This document shows, one piece after another, positions 2,620 to 60,442 of a stretch of DNA of 64,000 nucleotides. The notes beneath the pieces are model-generated. The model was given only the letters and a program-made list of their open reading frames with translations. It had not been told where the DNA came from and ran no database searches. Positions within the stretch are counted from its first letter, which is position 1. Each line of letters begins with the position of its first letter. The translations under genes and the position numbers were made by a program. The DNA comes from Devosia sp. SL43 (GTDB lineage Bacteria; Pseudomonadota; Alphaproteobacteria; Rhizobiales; Devosiaceae), in the NCBI RefSeq assembly GCF_021729885.1, contig NZ_CP063401.1, positions 2,906,501 through 2,970,500 of the forward strand, read 5' to 3'.

Positions 2620-3237
2620 TCAGGTATGAGCGAAGATGTCGGTTTCGTCCCAGCCAAGCAAATCAAGTTCACAGCGCGTCTTGAGGAAATCAAAGCAGGC
2701 CCGGGCAATGTCGCTGCGGCCCTCGCGCACCAGCATGCGATCGAGATGGCGCTTGAGATCATGCAGGTAGAGCACGTCGGAAGCGGCATAATCGAGTTGG
2801 GATTCGCTGAGCTTGTCACCACCCCAGTCCGAGCTTTGCTGCTGCTTGTTGAGATCGACGTTCAGCAGTTCGCGCACCAGATCCTTGAGGCCATGCCGGT
2901 CGGTATAGGTCCGCACCAGCTTGCTGGCGATTTTGGTGCAATAGATCGGCCCCGTCACCACGCCGAAGCGATGCTTGAGCACGGCGACGTCGAAGCGGGC
3001 ATAGTGGAAAATCTTGGTGACATCAGGATTGCCCAGCAGCTTGACCAGATTGGGCGCGTCACTGGCATTCTGCGGAATTTGCACAATGTCGGCACTGCCA
3101 TCGCCGGGCGACAACTGCACCACGCACAGCCGATCGCGATGCGGGTTGAGGCCCATGGTCTCGGTATCGATCGCCACCTCGCGGCCGTCATAGTTATTGA
3201 GGTTCGGCAAGTCGCCGCGATGCAGTCGGATGGCCAT
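2620..3237 (-). CDS. rnd: Short RNase D-type 3'-5' exonuclease
   Basis: 205 residues from the ATG at 3237 (MAIRLHRGDL). An upstream in-frame start at 3279 would add 14 unlikely residues. It is a DEDDy exonuclease fold: motif I AIDTETMGL (D24, E26), motif II FHYARFDVAVL, motif III LDYAASDVLYLHDL with Tyr and Asp. These acidic residues bind two metal ions for 3'-end trimming of RNA. No HRDC domain follows, so it is about half the length of E. coli RNase D. Such short forms are common in alphaproteobacteria and may have different substrates. Confidence 0.9.
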   Translation of the reverse strand: MAIRLHRGDLPNLNNYDGREVAIDTETMGLNPHRDRLCVVQLSPGDGSADIVQIPQNASDAPNLVKLLGNPDVTKIFHYARFDVAVLKHRFGVVTGPIYCTKIASKLVRTYTDRHGLKDLVRELLNVDLNKQQQSSDWGGDKLSESQLDYAASDVLYLHDLKRHLDRMLVREGRSDIARACFDFLKTRCELDLLGWDETDIFAHT

Positions 3238-50411: not shown

Positions 50412-50425
50412 GGCCTCCTTGGCAA

Positions 50426-50454
50426 AAAAGGCCGTTGCTTGGGCAACGGCCTTT
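50426..50454 (-). terminator. Intrinsic terminator of the cold-shock gene
   Basis: Stem GGCCGTTGC / GCAACGGCC with a 4-base loop, followed on the reverse strand by a run of T. It begins about 25 bases after the csp stop. The same bases lie just before the SD of the next small gene. Confidence 0.85.
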
Positions 50455-50479
50455 TCGATTTCAGCGGTTACGCTGCTGA

Positions 50480-50695
50480 TTACTTGATCAGCGACAGGTT
50501 GACCGCAGATTCCTTGCCGTCACGACCGGCTTCGAGCTCGTAGCTCACCTTGTCGTTTTCATAGAGGCCCTGGATGCCGGCACGCTCGACAGCCGAGATA
50601 TGGACGAATGCGTCCTTGCCGCCAGATTCCGGCGTGATGAAGCCGAAGCCCTTGGTGGCGTTGAAGAACTTTACGGTACCGTTGATGGTGGCCAT
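50480..50695 (-). CDS. Cold-shock protein, CspA family
   Basis: 71 residues, a single cold-shock domain: MATINGTVKFFNATKGFGFI (RNP1 KGFGFI), DAFVHISAVERAG (RNP2 FVHIS) and KVSYELEAGRDGKESAVNL. It binds single-stranded RNA/DNA and melts mRNA structure. The upstream 180 bases to the LysR stop probably include a long 5' leader, as is typical of csp genes. An intrinsic terminator follows. Confidence 0.95.
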   Translation of the reverse strand: MATINGTVKFFNATKGFGFITPESGGKDAFVHISAVERAGIQGLYENDKVSYELEAGRDGKESAVNLSLIK

Positions 50696-50878
50696 TGTTG
50701 AATTTCCTTGGCTCGTACATAGCGAGCGAGCAGTTCCCGGCCGGCGACATGCAGGCTGGGTCTAGACGTTCGCAAATTGATCAGTGAGCCGAGGACCGGA
50801 AATGACCGGCAATAGGCAGCCGACTTGGGCTGTAAACGTATTTTTGATTGTGGCAGGCAATCGAGTTGAAAGCAAGTC

Positions 50879-52119: not shown

Positions 52120-52650
52120 ATGATCCGCCCCATTGCCGCGCTTGCCTTCATCGCCCTCGGTCTCGGTGCCGCCACCGCGCAGGACGCTCTCCCCGCCCAG
52201 CCGGCAACGCCCGAGGTCGTGGTCGATCCGACCGCCACCATCGACAACACCCCCAAGCAGGCCAATCTGCTGACCGGCCTCTACGCCACCAAGGCGGTGA
52301 TCGAGATTTGTGCCGTCCCCGTCGAAGCCAACATCCTCGCCGGCATCGCCGCCGACCAGGCCCGCCTGGAGGCCAGTCTCGCCATGGACCCCGCCACGGC
52401 CGAAAAGGCGTATAGCCAGGTCAAGGCCGACGTTGAAAAAACCACCCCCGACTGCGCCGAAGGCAGCCCCGACCGCATCAGCGTCGACGCCGTGACAGCG
52501 ATCTATTCAGCCCAGGCCGCCGCCAGCCCCAACGGCGGCGCCACCCCCGCCGCCCCGGCACCCACGGCAACTCCCGCAACCCCGGCCACGCCCGCCGATC
52601 CGGCAGCGCCTGCCGCTGTTCCCGCCGAACCGGCAACGTCGGCGCAATAG
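52120..52650 (+). CDS. Secreted Ala/Pro-rich protein of unknown function
   Basis: 176 residues. Signal peptide MIRPIAALAFIALGLGAATA. A central helical segment (LLTGLYATKAVIEICAVPVEANIL, then AEKAYSQVKADVEKTTPDCAEG) contains two cysteines that may pair. The last 45 residues are a low-complexity Ala-Pro-Thr tail (AAPAPTATPATPATPADPAA) that may span peptidoglycan or be disordered. No family recognised. Confidence 0.75.
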   Translation: MIRPIAALAFIALGLGAATAQDALPAQPATPEVVVDPTATIDNTPKQANLLTGLYATKAVIEICAVPVEANILAGIAADQARLEASLAMDPATAEKAYSQVKADVEKTTPDCAEGSPDRISVDAVTAIYSAQAAASPNGGATPAAPAPTATPATPATPADPAAPAAVPAEPATSAQ

Positions 52651-52720
52651 CAGCTAAATTGCGCTAAGCCACAGGTTTTGCTAGAACCCGGCCGCACCAG
52701 ACGTTTGGGACGCACTAGAC

Positions 52721-52747
52721 ATGGATACCGCCAAGTCAGACCGCTAG
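52721..52747 (+). CDS. Putative attenuator leader peptide MDTAKSDR upstream of the CmlA/FloR-like exporter
   Basis: Eight-codon ORF (ATG 52721, TAG 52745-52747) encoding MDTAKSDR. The known chloramphenicol-stalled leader of cmlA is MSTSKNADK; the pattern M-x-T-x-K-x-(x)-D-basic is shared. The stop codon is followed at once by the hairpin at 52748. Recognised by comparison from memory and by position, 107 bases before the exporter start. Upstream SD is weak (GGGA at 11 bases). Confidence 0.65.
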   Translation: MDTAKSDR

Positions 52748-52777
52748 GCCGCAACAACCTCCCTTTGTTGTTGCGGC
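52748..52777 (+). promoter_or_regulatory. Attenuator hairpin after the leader peptide
   Basis: Perfect 11-base stem GCCGCAACAAC (52748-52758) and GTTGTTGCGGC (52767-52777) with an 8-base pyrimidine-rich loop. It starts at the base after the leader stop. A ribosome stalled on the leader would cover the left arm and stop the hairpin forming. Only a weak T-rich tract (GTTCTGTC) follows, so it could act as a transcription attenuator or block translation downstream. Confidence 0.65.
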
Positions 52778-52854
52778 GTTCTGTCGACCCAAATCCCAGC
52801 CCAGGCTGATGCGCAGACGCCGCCCGATGATCTCATTTGAGCGGATGCACTCTC

Positions 52855-54036
52855 ATGCCTAAACCAAACCCTGTCTGGGCCTATTCCATTCCGGCAGCTT
52901 TGCTGCTGATGGCCCCTTTCGATATTCTCGCCTCGCTGGCCATGGATATCTACCTGCCAATCGTCCCGTCCATGCCGGCCATGTTGGGCACCAGTCCCGA
53001 CCTCGTGCAGCTGACGCTTACCGTCTATATGATCACGCTCGGCGTCGGCCAGATCGTCTTCGGCCCGCTATCCGACCGCATTGGCCGTCGGTCCGTGCTG
53101 CTGGGTGGAGCTGCACTCTATGCAGCAGCGTCGTTCGCGCTGGCGATGATTTCGGCTCCATTTCCCTTCCTGCTCTGCCGCTTTCTGCAGGCGGCAGGCG
53201 CGGCAGCGGTTCTCGTTTCGACCTTCGCCACGGTCCGCGACGTCTATGCCGATCGTCCGGAAGGCTCGGTAATCTACAGCTTGCTCGGCGCCATGCTATC
53301 CTTTGTTCCCGCCTTGGGGCCGATCGCCGGTGCGCTCATTGCCGACAACCTCGGCTGGCGCACGATCTTCGTTGTGCTCGGCGGACTCGCAGTTGTCGCT
53401 GGATTCAACGCTGGCTGGCGCTGGCCCGAAACACGACCAGAGGGCACTGAACGGCGCCTCTCCTGGACGCCGATGCTTCGCAGCCCAGCGTTCTGGACCT
53501 ATACACTCGGATTTAGCGCCGCGATGGGGACGTTCTTTGTCTTCTTCTCCACCGCGCCGCGTATCCTGATCGATGGCGCGGGCTTCTCCGAACTGGGGTT
53601 CAGTCTGGCCTTTTCCACCGCAGCGCTGGCCATGATCATCACCACCCGCTTCGCCAGGAGCTTCGTTGCCCGCTGGGGCATTCCCGGCAGCCTCCGGCGT
53701 GGCATGCTGACCCTGCTGGTCGGCGCAGTGCTGGCCGCGCTCGGCGATCGCTTCGATGTGCCGCCCTTCGTCGGTTTCATTATGCCGATGTGGGTTATGG
53801 CCATAGGCATCGTGTTTGCCAGTGCCGTCACCGCCAATGGCGCGCTGGCCGCCTTCGCTGATCGGGCAGGGACGGCGGTGGCCTTGTACTTCTGCGTGCA
53901 GAGCCTGTTCGTCGGCATTGTCGGCACCGCTATGGTCGTCCTGCTGCCCGGCGACACTGCCTGGCCGCTGGTGGCCTATGCCGCCGGCATGGCGATTGTC
54001 GTGTTGTTGGCGCTTTCCCTGCTTGATCGGCGTTGA
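52855..54036 (+). CDS. MFS exporter of the CmlA/FloR family (phenicol efflux-like)
   Basis: 393 residues, twelve membrane helices. It shares long stretches with CmlA/FloR drug exporters: LLMAPFDILASLAMDIYLP, LSDRIGRRSVLLGG, STFATVRDVYADRPEG, FVPALGPIAGALI, GTFFVFFSTAPRILI and VTANGALAAF. FloR/CmlA expel chloramphenicol or florfenicol by proton antiport. Start chosen at ATG 52855; the TTG at 52837 adds six residues. Base composition matches the chromosome and no integron or IS is near, so this looks like a native gene. A leader peptide and hairpin upstream suggest inducible expression. Confidence 0.92.
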   Translation: MPKPNPVWAYSIPAALLLMAPFDILASLAMDIYLPIVPSMPAMLGTSPDLVQLTLTVYMITLGVGQIVFGPLSDRIGRRSVLLGGAALYAAASFALAMISAPFPFLLCRFLQAAGAAAVLVSTFATVRDVYADRPEGSVIYSLLGAMLSFVPALGPIAGALIADNLGWRTIFVVLGGLAVVAGFNAGWRWPETRPEGTERRLSWTPMLRSPAFWTYTLGFSAAMGTFFVFFSTAPRILIDGAGFSELGFSLAFSTAALAMIITTRFARSFVARWGIPGSLRRGMLTLLVGAVLAALGDRFDVPPFVGFIMPMWVMAIGIVFASAVTANGALAAFADRAGTAVALYFCVQSLFVGIVGTAMVVLLPGDTAWPLVAYAAGMAIVVLLALSLLDRR

Positions 54037-54070
54037 CCCTTAAGGTTGGGGCGGCATTGCCGCCCCGACA

Positions 54071-54967
54071 TCACTCACATATCCGCGCCGTACAGCTCTG
54101 CCCGTGGCACCCCAGGTCCAGATGCAGGTGGTCCTCATGCTCGGCATTGGCTTCCGGCCCCAGCACCGTCATGAAATCCCCGCAGGCGGCGTCATGCGCC
54201 AGCCGCAGCAGGCGACCCTCGGGCGCCGCCGCCGGCAGCCAGTTCGCCTCGACGGCAATGCTCCGCCCGTCCGCCAGCGTGAAGCCGGTGACGTCAATCG
54301 CATTGGCAAAGCCATGCTCGGATGTGCGCCCGGCCTCGCCGCCAACCACGGGCCGGCACATATAGCTTGTGCCCGTATCGATCGACGCCAATTCGCTCTC
54401 CAGCATTGCCCCGGCATAGCCGTCCACCGTTTCGGCCCAGCCCGGCATGGCGCTCGCTATCTGGCAATTGGTGGTCACCGGGCTCGATAGCGGCACCATC
54501 CGCCCGCGCACCAGCACTGCCGTCACCACCAGCGGCGATTGCTCCCCGCACATCCCCTCGCTGAGCGGTGGCGCCATCTCCGCCTCCACCAGCCCCTGCA
54601 TCACCGCCGGACACGCCACCTGATACACCCGCTCCGGCTCCGGCTCAGGCTCGGGCACAGCCACCGGCTCGGCCTCGACCTCAGCCTCAGGCTGAACCTC
54701 AACCTCCGGCTCAGGTTCCGCCTCAACAGCCGGAGCCTCCGGCGCCTGCACCACAGGCACATCCGGCAGGCTCGGCGGGCGTGGCCTTGGCACTGGCGGT
54801 GGATCGGCGACAGGCGCCACCGGCGGGGCTGGTCGCGTCGGCGCCTGTGCGGGCGGCGCGGTCAGTTCATCCACAAAATCCTGGATCGGCCCCAGAATAT
54901 CCTGCGCCATAGCAGGCGTGGCGAGGAGCAGCGGCAGGGCGATGGTCAGTCGGGTGAGCATGTTCAT
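54071..54967 (-). CDS. Extensin-like C-terminal domain protein (secreted LAS-type fold)
   Basis: 298 residues. Signal peptide [21 protein letters not shown]. Residues about 35-125 are a Pro/Glu/Val-rich spacer ([15 protein letters not shown], then [19 protein letters not shown]). The C-terminal domain has [14 protein letters not shown] and [13 protein letters not shown], the metal-binding His/Asp/His layout shared with D-Ala-D-Ala carboxypeptidases of the M15 type, with four or more cysteines. Likely acts on peptidoglycan; the family's activity is not well established. Confidence 0.88.
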
Positions 54968-56911: not shown

Positions 56912-59900
56912 TTAAAGTTGGGCGACTACAAGTATTCCGGCCTCTATCCTTACAGTCAGACCTCTGCGGGGCGAGACCTCATCTAGCCAAAACAGGATAT
57001 CTCCCCGAAGAGAGCTATCTATACTGTTGTTGAATAGCGCTACAGCTTTCTCAAGGAAGGCACTGCCTTCAATTTGATCAAGAGTCGCTATCACACTGTG
57101 AGTTGGAAGGCCGTTTGACTTGTGCATGACCGACCATAATCGGTCTGTATTTCTGTATAATGGATTCTTCTCTATTAACCAGAGTACACTAGCAAACCAA
57201 GAATTCCATTCTTCTGTTTCGATAGCGGAAGTTTCTTGCAGGTATTCGTCGAAAAGACGAACGGCAGACTTTATGAACTTACTTGAGTTCATATCTGCTG
57301 CCATCGCAACTAGAGGTCGTAGCTTGTCTGGTGGAAGATTTGCGTTGTCCAAGATACTTTGAATCCAGCTGACAACCGATACGCACAGGGGATCGTCCGC
57401 ATTTGTGGTAACAAATGGGCCGCTCAGCAAAAAATCTCTTTGGGGGTGCACCGCAACGTGTCCAGCTCGCCGAGCGAGATCTTCAACTATCTCTATCTGT
57501 TGCTGTATCGGTAAATCTCTCTCTCTAACTATTTCTACCCACAAAATCAAAAGACTATTAGAGACGGTTCCCGCCAGCCGCCAAATAATGCTGTCAACTA
57601 GCGATTTTCCGTCAACGACATTAAGTAGACCAGAGATGGCATCCGCCTTGTCCGCTTGCTTCGCCCCCATTAGAATTCCGCAGAACAGCAGCTTTCGTTC
57701 GGCAGATACGTCAGGGTCATTCGATGCGTTGGCAATCACCTCCAGCAGACGAATACCGGCAGTTGAGCCGGGGCGCGCCGTGGCAAGGAAGCACGACAAT
57801 AGGCGTTCACTTTCGGAGTGTTCCCGGCATGCGGCGGCAAATTCTTCTTGCCACCAGGATGCGGCAAGCAAATCATTTGAGAAGTCGGTGCCAAAGCCGA
57901 ATCTTGAGGCGCTCATCGCCTCTAGGATGATTTTGCGGCCGTTCTTCTCTTCCTGCTTTGACAAACAGATTACCGCCGCCGCGCGGACCGGCAGGGGATA
58001 CCTTTCGTCACCTAATATCTCGTCCCAAGGCAAACTAGGCATGTCTTCTAGAGATCGAAGGAGCTTGGCTAGCACGCTTGCTTCTAGGGAGTTGTCCGAC
58101 TCTGACAAGGCGCGGCTCAACAGCAAATCGGCCGCAGGCGAGCCAGCGTTGCGTATAGCCTCACTCCATCCTTCGTGCCACAATTCCCTTATGTCGGGTC
58201 CGCTAAGCAGCACGCTCAAACACTTGACCGTCAACTCCCCATCTGCAGCAATCCGCAATACTTCGGGTCGCTCTTCTAAGAACCCTCTAGGTTGGCACAT
58301 CGCCTCTCGTATGGCGTCATTTGGCGGGCGAGCGAACCCGTCCGCAATGACTCGACCAATGGCTTGCCGCACCGAGTACGTTCCAGCGCCCCATGAGGCA
58401 GCGAGCTTGCACGCCACCTTTTCGCGCAGCTCAAAGTTCACTTGAGCGCCGTTCGCTATAACTCGACCAACTATCCTGAGTGTTGTTCGAAAATAATCAT
58501 CCGGCTCATCGAGTTGCCTCTCCACCAAATCTTCAACAGAATCAATTCGTTCAAGGGCAAACTGTAGCGCCTGAGCCCAGGGCCGCCTTGCGGCCTTCCT
58601 AAACCATTCACCCGCACCATCAAGACTCTGCGATGCGAGCGCGCAACCTGCCAAATACTCAGCCACAGTGGCAATGTCGAAGTGAATGCGCGATCCTCTC
58701 CTCTTAACGAGGCCGCATCGCAGTAATTCGTCGATGCCGATATCTCCCTCGGCCCCCACAGCGCCAGCCGCGTTGCTTCGCACGACATTTTCGTCGATCG
58801 ACAGCTCCGAGCGCCGAAGGGCCAGCATTGCCATCGACTCGGCCGCTCGCCTTAGAATGGTCACTGAAAGGCCGGGTGGCTTGGTCCTCTTGTGCCTTTG
58901 TGGCGCCAGTAGATTTCCAAGATATCGCTCGATTAGCTCCGACCGGCTCCTTGGAAGTACGCCAGACTTTGGGAGCGTACCAACCAGCATCGCGAGAAAC
59001 AAAGGTATCCGACAGATACTCCGGAGATCGGGATTCTTGAAAATAGATGATTGAAGTTTGTCGCTGTTTTCAATGTTTCTCTTTTGCAGGTAATTCCGGA
59101 GACCTTCCTTGACTTTTTCGTCCGAGAAACGGAGAACAGAAAGACGCGTAAAGCCATGCGGTATCGCAATCAAAGAACTATTTCTAGCCGCCAATATTAT
59201 GGGCAGCGACGCATGCCGGCCGGAAACTCGCGAAACTAAATCCATGACTCGGATACGGGCAACATCATCAACCTCATCCAACCCATCCAGAAACAGAACT
59301 GCCCGCTCGGAATTTATCACCGCCGCCCAGTCGATTGTGACTCCATACTGTTTGTTCACAGCGCCTAGACCGTATTCTTCTAGGGTTGGCCATGATTGCA
59401 ATTCGTCGGCCGTAGTGAAAATAGGAACGTAAGGTGTTTCTGCGATTATCCGAGTGCACAGCGCGCGAAGAATGGTCGTTTTTCCAAAACCTGCGCCCGC
59501 TTCCAATATTATCCGTCCATTATTCAGCGCTGGAAAGCGGCTAATATCTGCCGCCTCGGAGCCTGCCGATATGTCGTAGTGCCGGAACCGGTGGTCTTCT
59601 TGTTCGAAATCACTCTCGTCCGACTTGAAGTTACTGACCTCAGGCCAAACAAAAAGATCAACTTCCGGCCCTTGCAGGTCTGCCCCCGGAACGGATAGCT
59701 CACGCACCTGCGTGGCAAGCGCGCCTAAGTAATGTTCCAGACCGTCGCTAGTTGAACCATAGATTCGTACGTCATATTTGCTTCGCAACACCTCAAGAAG
59801 TTGGAAGGCGGTAAATGTTGCGCGCCCTCGTGCGGCGAGGGCGCTCTCGTCACGTAGTAACGAAAGGAGTTGTAACTTTCCGACGGACGATTCGGGCACC

Positions 59901-60442
59901 CAGTCGCGAACTCCAATAGTTTCGATGTTGCGAGTAGTTTCGAACTCAATCGCGACGCTGTTTAGCGTCGGCCAGCATTCGGCGAGGTTGCAACCCAAGG
60001 CGTCCGAAACCTTGCCGATTATTGCAAGCTGGACCTGAGAGAGCGCCTCGACCCACTCCACCCCGTCATTCTTACCACGCGATCTAGCACAGGCCTCCCT
60101 AAGGGCATCCAACTCCGCGCTGTAGGTACCGACGATAATGCTACAACGAGCCGTTCGACTTGCTGCTCGTTGCTTCAGAACGGACTGCCACAATGATCTC
60201 CACACTTCGCCGGATGTGGCCAAGGCTTCCTTTGCTTGAATGTGGAGCCGAGTTCCGTCGGCGTACTCCACTACGATATCATCCACCGGGTCGGGAGCTT
60301 CGACACGAATAGAAGCAATCTTTGCTTCGCCCGGAATTGTCCTCAGGTCTAGCATGCGGCCCAGATACAATGCCGCCAGACTATTCTGATACCTAATTCC
60401 GGATTGAGTAGTTGGCCCACCTGCTTCCGGCATGAAACGCAT
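56912..60442 (-). CDS. DUF4297/Cap4-like nuclease-NACHT ATPase with helical-repeat C-terminus (candidate antiphage NLR-like protein)
   Basis: 1176 residues (second ATG at 60433 possible; AAGGAG upstream). Residues 8-31 GGPTTQSGIRYQNSLAALYL and then E48, D54-D55 (DDIVVEY) and Q69-A-K71 (HIQAKEAL) give the E-x-DD-x-QxK core of a PD-(D/E)xK nuclease, as in DUF4297/Cap4 proteins. A NACHT module follows: Walker A EAGAGFGKTT (316-323), Walker B AVLFLDGLDEVDD (381-393), sensor Arg in IILAARNSS. From about 520 to the end it is rich in helices of HEAT/ARM type. The GC content is visibly lower than in lepA or the right-hand neighbour, which suggests acquisition. No partner gene is adjacent; it looks self-contained. 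Confidence 0.85.
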   Translation of the reverse strand: MRFMPEAGGPTTQSGIRYQNSLAALYLGRMLDLRTIPGEAKIASIRVEAPDPVDDIVVEYADGTRLHIQAKEALATSGEVWRSLWQSVLKQRAASRTARCSIIVGTYSAELDALREACARSRGKNDGVEWVEALSQVQLAIIGKVSDALGCNLAECWPTLNSVAIEFETTRNIETIGVRDWVPESSVGKLQLLSLLRDESALAARGRATFTAFQLLEVLRSKYDVRIYGSTSDGLEHYLGALATQVRELSVPGADLQGPEVDLFVWPEVSNFKSDESDFEQEDHRFRHYDISAGSEAADISRFPALNNGRIILEAGAGFGKTTILRALCTRIIAETPYVPIFTTADELQSWPTLEEYGLGAVNKQYGVTIDWAAVINSERAVLFLDGLDEVDDVARIRVMDLVSRVSGRHASLPIILAARNSSLIAIPHGFTRLSVLRFSDEKVKEGLRNYLQKRNIENSDKLQSSIFKNPDLRSICRIPLFLAMLVGTLPKSGVLPRSRSELIERYLGNLLAPQRHKRTKPPGLSVTILRRAAESMAMLALRRSELSIDENVVRSNAAGAVGAEGDIGIDELLRCGLVKRRGSRIHFDIATVAEYLAGCALASQSLDGAGEWFRKAARRPWAQALQFALERIDSVEDLVERQLDEPDDYFRTTLRIVGRVIANGAQVNFELREKVACKLAASWGAGTYSVRQAIGRVIADGFARPPNDAIREAMCQPRGFLEERPEVLRIAADGELTVKCLSVLLSGPDIRELWHEGWSEAIRNAGSPAADLLLSRALSESDNSLEASVLAKLLRSLEDMPSLPWDEILGDERYPLPVRAAAVICLSKQEEKNGRKIILEAMSASRFGFGTDFSNDLLAASWWQEEFAAACREHSESERLLSCFLATARPGSTAGIRLLEVIANASNDPDVSAERKLLFCGILMGAKQADKADAISGLLNVVDGKSLVDSIIWRLAGTVSNSLLILWVEIVRERDLPIQQQIEIVEDLARRAGHVAVHPQRDFLLSGPFVTTNADDPLCVSVVSWIQSILDNANLPPDKLRPLVAMAADMNSSKFIKSAVRLFDEYLQETSAIETEEWNSWFASVLWLIEKNPLYRNTDRLWSVMHKSNGLPTHSVIATLDQIEGSAFLEKAVALFNNSIDSSLRGDILFWLDEVSPRRGLTVRIEAGILVVAQL

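Follow-up and report, generated by a model that had tools for sequence, protein, structure and literature searches.

Just upstream of a chromosomal CmlA/FloR-family exporter gene in Devosia sp. SL43, an eight-codon open reading frame stops where a stem begins, which raises the question of whether the exporter is governed by an antibiotic-responsive attenuator and whether such a device is native to this chromosome. The locus lies in a 64,000-nucleotide stretch of DNA, here called the window. Translational attenuators such as those of ermC and cat-86 in Gram-positive bacteria combine a drug-stalled leader ribosome with alternative hairpins and a hidden ribosome-binding site; by analogy, the window element would follow the same logic, although its leader, RNA and resistance protein are unrelated to theirs. 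In the CmlA/FloR family itself, attenuation of cmlA is classical (PMC8876359), the cmlA1 attenuator residing in an integron cassette of Tn1696 (Stokes and Hall 1991, as presented in PMC8876359 and PMC11190716), and a putative floR attenuator with the nine-codon leader MGNSKSADK and a perfect 11-bp inverted repeat was reported in 2017 (PMC5890775). Our comparison makes it very probable that the window element acts as a cmlA/floR-type translational attenuator inducible by a drug; ribosome stalling, the identity of the inducer and the function of the exporter are inferred. The features are collected in Table 1.

Table 1. Features of the exporter locus (window coordinates).
Feature	Position	Strand	Basis or remark
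Insertion between two convergent genes, comprising promoter, leader, attenuator and exporter	52651-54040	+	Right end approximate; empty sites in congeners
Putative sigma-70-like promoter, TTGCGC (52659-52664), 17 nt, TAGAAC (52682-52687)	52659-52687	+	Conserved TTG-N17-TA
Probable leader Shine-Dalgarno sequence, GGGA	52707-52710	+	Alignment A1; family consensus TGGAG at the same place
Leader ORF, ATGGATACCGCCAAGTCAGACCGCTAG (MDTAKSDR*)	52721-52747	+	Sequence read
Predicted stall, Asp7 in P site, Ser6 penultimate, Arg8 in A site	52739-52741 (Asp7)	+	Register inferred from cmlA leader toeprint (PMC11190716)
Segment 1, first arm of stem 1:2, GCCGCAACAAC	52748-52758	+	Sequence and alignment pairing
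Segment 2, second arm of stem 1:2, GTTGTTGCGGC	52767-52777	+	52773-52784 pairs with segment 3 too
Segment 3, GCAGACGCCGC	52813-52823	+	Predicted to pair with 52773-52784 (helix 2:3, anti-sequester) when a stalled ribosome covers segment 1
Hairpin 3:4 (52820-52829 with 52834-52844), predicted to sequester the exporter ribosome-binding site	52820-52844	+	Alignment pairing
Probable (weak) exporter ribosome-binding site, GAGCGGA	52839-52845	+	Same alignment columns as cmlA1 AAGGAG (row L115)
CmlA/FloR-family probable phenicol exporter, 393 aa	52855-54036	+	NCBIfam cmlA_floR (NF033134), 607.8 bits against a cut-off of 450

The earlier note on this DNA had described an eight-codon leader whose stop abuts an 11-bp perfect stem, and both are where it placed them, with no gap between them. 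Stem 1:2 has 11 of 11 perfect pairs and an 8-nt loop, and begins directly at the leader stop. A strong GC stem directly 3' of a stop codon might be nothing but an ordinary hairpin or terminator next to a chance ORF, and the region as a whole folds with a z-score of only -2.1. The comparative data already refute this explanation, to which we give practically no credence. A covariance model (R2) built from 37 sequences, with the window genome and its closest relative left out, matches the window at exactly 52721-52854 (105.8 bits, E = 3.7e-30), so the leader and stem are not a product of chance. The leader is also conserved as a peptide, with synonymous changes among its DNA sequences. Of 398 genomes that sample the phylum evenly, 13 have a cmlA_floR gene above cut-off, and the RNA element reaches at least 35 bits in exactly these 13. 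No intrinsic terminator was found, the GC stem being followed by GTTCTGTC; because this lacks a U-run, stem 1:2 is not a terminator of that type. Nor does any Rfam family match the element.

Leader and stem stand upstream of the exporter in 78 of the 80 relatives fetched, so the lack of conservation among orthologous loci that the earlier note named as grounds for rejecting its reading was not found. The same order recurs in these relatives: a short ORF whose stop directly adjoins the stem, followed by GGCAGA-CGCCGCC, CATTTGAGCGGATG and the exporter start. Within the genus, all eight exporters have the RNA element. We also considered whether the attenuator serves other genes and rejected this, as all R1 matches of at least 35 bits in the phylum sample or 64 bits in the order sample precede a cmlA/floR exporter; the weaker matches, below these values, are chance GC hairpins. 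Among 27 Myxococcus genomes, 20 contain the element, with leaders that end in ADE.

Individual loci depart from the common form in several ways. At three loci (L006, L008 and L009) the leader is present when read in the opposite orientation, and at another (L056) it begins with GTG. In two rhizobial loci, L039 (about 2895) and L050 (about 2894), the leader stop is lost through a change of TAA to TAC or TAT; the leader would thus be read through stem 1, which predicts leaky exporter expression. Upstream of position 3001 in Comamonas testosteroni NFYY023 (L066) lies a chimera in which a cmlA1-type leader and upstream region (MSTSKNADK) is joined to a floR-type stem and exporter. The attenuator is absent upstream of the FloR-like genes of Flavobacterium kayseriense (L091) and a Chryseobacterium (L104). 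AT-rich DNA that contains TATCTTTGC and resembles a Bacteroidota promoter takes the place of the attenuator in the 200 nt upstream of these two exporters, as far as the start codon; here the switch was lost on transfer.

What is conserved in the leader can be read from a survey of 129 loci, in which the leaders represent 55 different peptides and 69 different DNA sequences. The M-x-T-x-K pattern that the earlier note took as the feature shared with the cmlA leader proved variable, and the conserved part is instead [Ala/Ser/Thr]-Asp-x directly before the stop. This motif is found in 51 of the 55 peptides, the remaining four deviating solely at Asp, and MDTAKSDR* fits it. A toeprint of the cmlA leader places Asp8 in the P site and Lys9 in the A site (PMC11190716). 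Read in this register, the P-site residue is Asp in 51 of the 55 distinct peptides, encoded by GAC or GAT, and the penultimate residue of the nascent chain is Ala in 35, Ser in 17 and Thr in three, with no other residue found. The last sense codon is variable (Arg, Lys, Glu, Thr, His or Asn), and the residues farther upstream of the stall motif vary widely. The sole Val-for-Asp leaders, M(S/N)NGNGPQTVR, belong to a divergent branch (L166, L169 and L187), where a P-site Val follows a penultimate Thr. In a quickly built tree, which covers 105 exporters and has several long branches, the penultimate residue changed among Ala, Ser and Thr at least 10 times and never to anything else, at least six of these changes being forced by supported branches. 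A literature search found no publication on the leader peptides themselves.

Chloramphenicol stalls ribosomes best after a penultimate Ala, followed by Ser and Thr (PMC8987054). At the level of sequence, the confinement of the leaders to these three residues corresponds to the chloramphenicol context rule. The rule is common to chloramphenicol and linezolid (PMC8987054), and no natural inducer is known for soil bacteria; the inducer could therefore be a non-phenicol ligand of the peptidyl transferase with the same preference, either a linezolid-like compound or a natural product. We consider this improbable, as annotation assigns the exporter family specifically to phenicols and responses to phenicols are on record for members of the family (PMC5890775, PMC6617876).

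The leader of the window is one codon shorter than that of its sister G066 (MDTGKSSDR), with Ser-Asp-Arg-stop kept in register. Its penultimate residue, Ser6, is a weaker stall residue than Ala, and its Shine-Dalgarno sequence is weaker in the alignment than the family consensus. The attenuator might accordingly have decayed in this copy, with eight codons, Ser for Ala and a poor leader ribosome-binding site, leaving the exporter constitutive or silent. Such decay seems very unlikely to us: the deletion removed exactly one codon and spared both the stall motif and the stem, other eight-codon leaders exist in the family (MEPKQSDR, MGSKKSDR and MGSKSAAK), and Ser is the penultimate residue in nearly a third of the distinct peptides.

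The stem named in the earlier note is real, but it is only half of the device. The part that would hide the ribosome-binding site lies at 52813-52845, and the whole runs past the first stem to the exporter start codon (52721-52854). Across 53 distinct sequences, 99.5% of cells are paired in helix 1:2 and 91% in hairpin 3:4, with three pairs changed on both sides in each; the window's own hairpin 3:4 has one mismatch. Helix 2:3 is paired in 94.2% of cells, compared with at most 54% when the partners are slid; over all three helices, the slid controls give at most 55%. Covariation is clear in 1:2 and 3:4 (six double-changed pairs together), whereas in 2:3 it is weak, with two double-changed pairs that were equalled in 169 of 500 shuffles. 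Taken together, the leader and the four segments read as a four-segment translational attenuator.

Folding calculations are consistent with a switch. For the free RNA, the family means are 0.99 for 1:2, 0.04 for 2:3 and 0.67 for 3:4. The stalled state was represented by a ribosome that masks up to 17 nt from the Asp codon. Stalling is then predicted to raise the family mean of 2:3 from 0.04 to 0.63 and to lower that of the lower 3:4 stem from 0.74 to 0.24 (53 sequences); in the window, 2:3 would rise from 0.10 to 0.81 and 3:4 fall from 0.46 to 0.02. The unpaired value of the window ribosome-binding site goes from 0.28 to 0.50, so the thermodynamic folds give partial opening only, and some members (for example L067) show no switch in the simple fold calculation.

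A mechanism can be proposed on this basis. Without drug, ribosomes would translate the eight-codon leader and leave, stem 1:2 would form and hairpin 3:4 would hide the exporter ribosome-binding site, so that little exporter would be made. Binding of a phenicol in the peptidyl transferase centre would halt the ribosome on the leader when Asp7 occupies the P site and Ser6 is the penultimate residue. The stalled ribosome would cover 52739 to about 52755 and hence mask most of segment 1. Segment 2, thus freed, would pair with segment 3 and hairpin 3:4 would open, allowing the exporter to be translated and to pump the drug out.

Transcription of the leader would start from a promoter of its own. 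Of 92 distinct regions upstream of the leader, 76% contain TTG-N16-18-TA, versus 7% of shuffles, the spacing being nearly always exactly 17 nt, and the closest relative, G066, has the promoter-like pair TTGCGC-N17-TAAGTC. A transcription start downstream of 52721, which the earlier note listed as evidence that would speak against attenuation, is thus countered by prediction only, namely by the -35/-10 pair predicted upstream of the leader.

Expression of floR rises with phenicols (PMC5890775). In Myxococcus xanthus, the chromosomal CmlA/FloR gene MXAN_2566 shows the strongest upregulation of all genes in a chloramphenicol-adapted phenotype, and the bacterium requires it to grow in the presence of chloramphenicol (PMC6617876). 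That paper makes no mention of a leader; the same RNA element is present in Myxococcus genomes. Both responses were measured at the RNA level (PMC5890775, PMC6617876), which pure translational attenuation by itself does not predict. The leader ribosome may instead mainly set the amount of RNA, the stalled ribosome protecting the transcript or blocking Rho while melting of 3:4 is secondary, as the RNA-level induction of floR and of MXAN_2566 (log2FC 5.6) would suggest. We regard this as possible but doubtful as the main mode of control, because there is no intrinsic terminator and because RNA amount alone would give no role to the conserved alternative pairs 2:3 and 3:4 that end on the ribosome-binding site. 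Control of RNA amount and translational attenuation may also act together; of the two, we favor translational attenuation as the principal mechanism.

The exporter of the window is 62% identical to FloR2, ~64% to FloR and 50% to CmlA1, and FloR residues Asp23 and Arg109 are conserved in it. Its control region resembles that of cmlA1 in having a short leader that ends in Ala/Ser-Asp-basic-stop, a stem that follows the stop directly, alternative pairing that reaches the ribosome-binding site of a CmlA/FloR exporter, and its own promoter upstream of the leader, putative in the window. The two differ in that the cmlA leader MSTSKNADK has nine codons and a penultimate Ala, whereas MDTAKSDR has eight and a penultimate Ser; cmlA1 has the strong AAGGAG in place of the weak GAGCGGA; and the window unit is a chromosomal insertion rather than an integron cassette. 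The floR attenuator belongs to the same family and has the same nearly invariant segments; floR itself is mobile. The 2017 report described stem 1:2 only, a stem that does not overlap the floR ribosome-binding site (PMC5890775); segments 3 and 4 are supplied by the present alignment.

With regard to its origin, the exporter with its leader is a ~1.4-kb insertion between the genes at 52120-52650 and 54071-54967. These genes are convergent neighbors without the exporter in at least 11 congeners (eleven empty sites were read), lying 37 nt apart in G028 and G088, whereas leader and exporter stand between them in G000 and its sister G066. Only eight of 75 genomes of the genus have an exporter above cut-off, and a native core gene of the genus was therefore rejected. 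In G065 and G070 (L139 and L140), a divergent leader-plus-exporter lies near rpoA, a second insertion site in the genus; from the two sites it follows that insertion of the leader-attenuator-exporter unit took place on more than one occasion. We saw no transposase adjacent to the inserted unit. The earlier description of a CmlA-type attenuator on a chromosomal exporter holds as to its kind and its chromosomal setting, whereas the reading as a native, non-mobile gene is not supported for this locus. Elsewhere in the window, the minus strand has a sub-threshold match to the cspA thermoregulator 5' UTR at 50424-50731 (36.8 bits against a gathering threshold of 78, E = 6e-7) and, at 56912-60442, a gene for a 1176-aa protein with a weak match to NACHT/STAND-like NTPases, an N-terminal stretch of which resembles the candidate defence protein PDC-M54A (6e-11).

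The suggestion that the locus represents an environmental ancestor of resistance-gene regulation is not supported here, FloR grouping with other chromosomal exporters of the Rhizobiales type. We likewise rejected the window locus as a direct ancestor of floR, since the tree does not place its branch beside that of FloR and none of the plasmid leaders closely resembles the window leader. Mobile FloR falls, in the tree of 105 exporters, within the exporters of the Rhizobiales type. An environmental source of floR would agree with this position, though not the window locus as that source.

The device is thus of a known kind, and the window copy is a further chromosomal example with an eight-codon, Ser-type leader. 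What goes beyond the known, as read from the sequences, is family-wide: the one-to-one partnership with the exporter, the confinement to Ala, Ser and Thr, and the complete four-segment switch, through which floR gains the ribosome-binding-site switch left unplaced in the 2017 report. The comparison also provides a family-wide natural test of the chloramphenicol context rule. We think it likely that the entire CmlA/FloR exporter family of Pseudomonadota and Myxococcota has the attenuator as an obligatory partner, which moves with the exporter as one unit and whose stall site has stayed confined, over evolution, to the residues that chloramphenicol prefers. A major phenicol resistance family would then be under drug-inducible control throughout environmental chromosomes, which suggests that this control was not devised on clinical plasmids. 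If this is correct, the leaders would constitute a natural record, in soil bacteria, of repeated evolution under the chloramphenicol context rule, and mobile floR would have taken its ready-made switch from soil bacteria.
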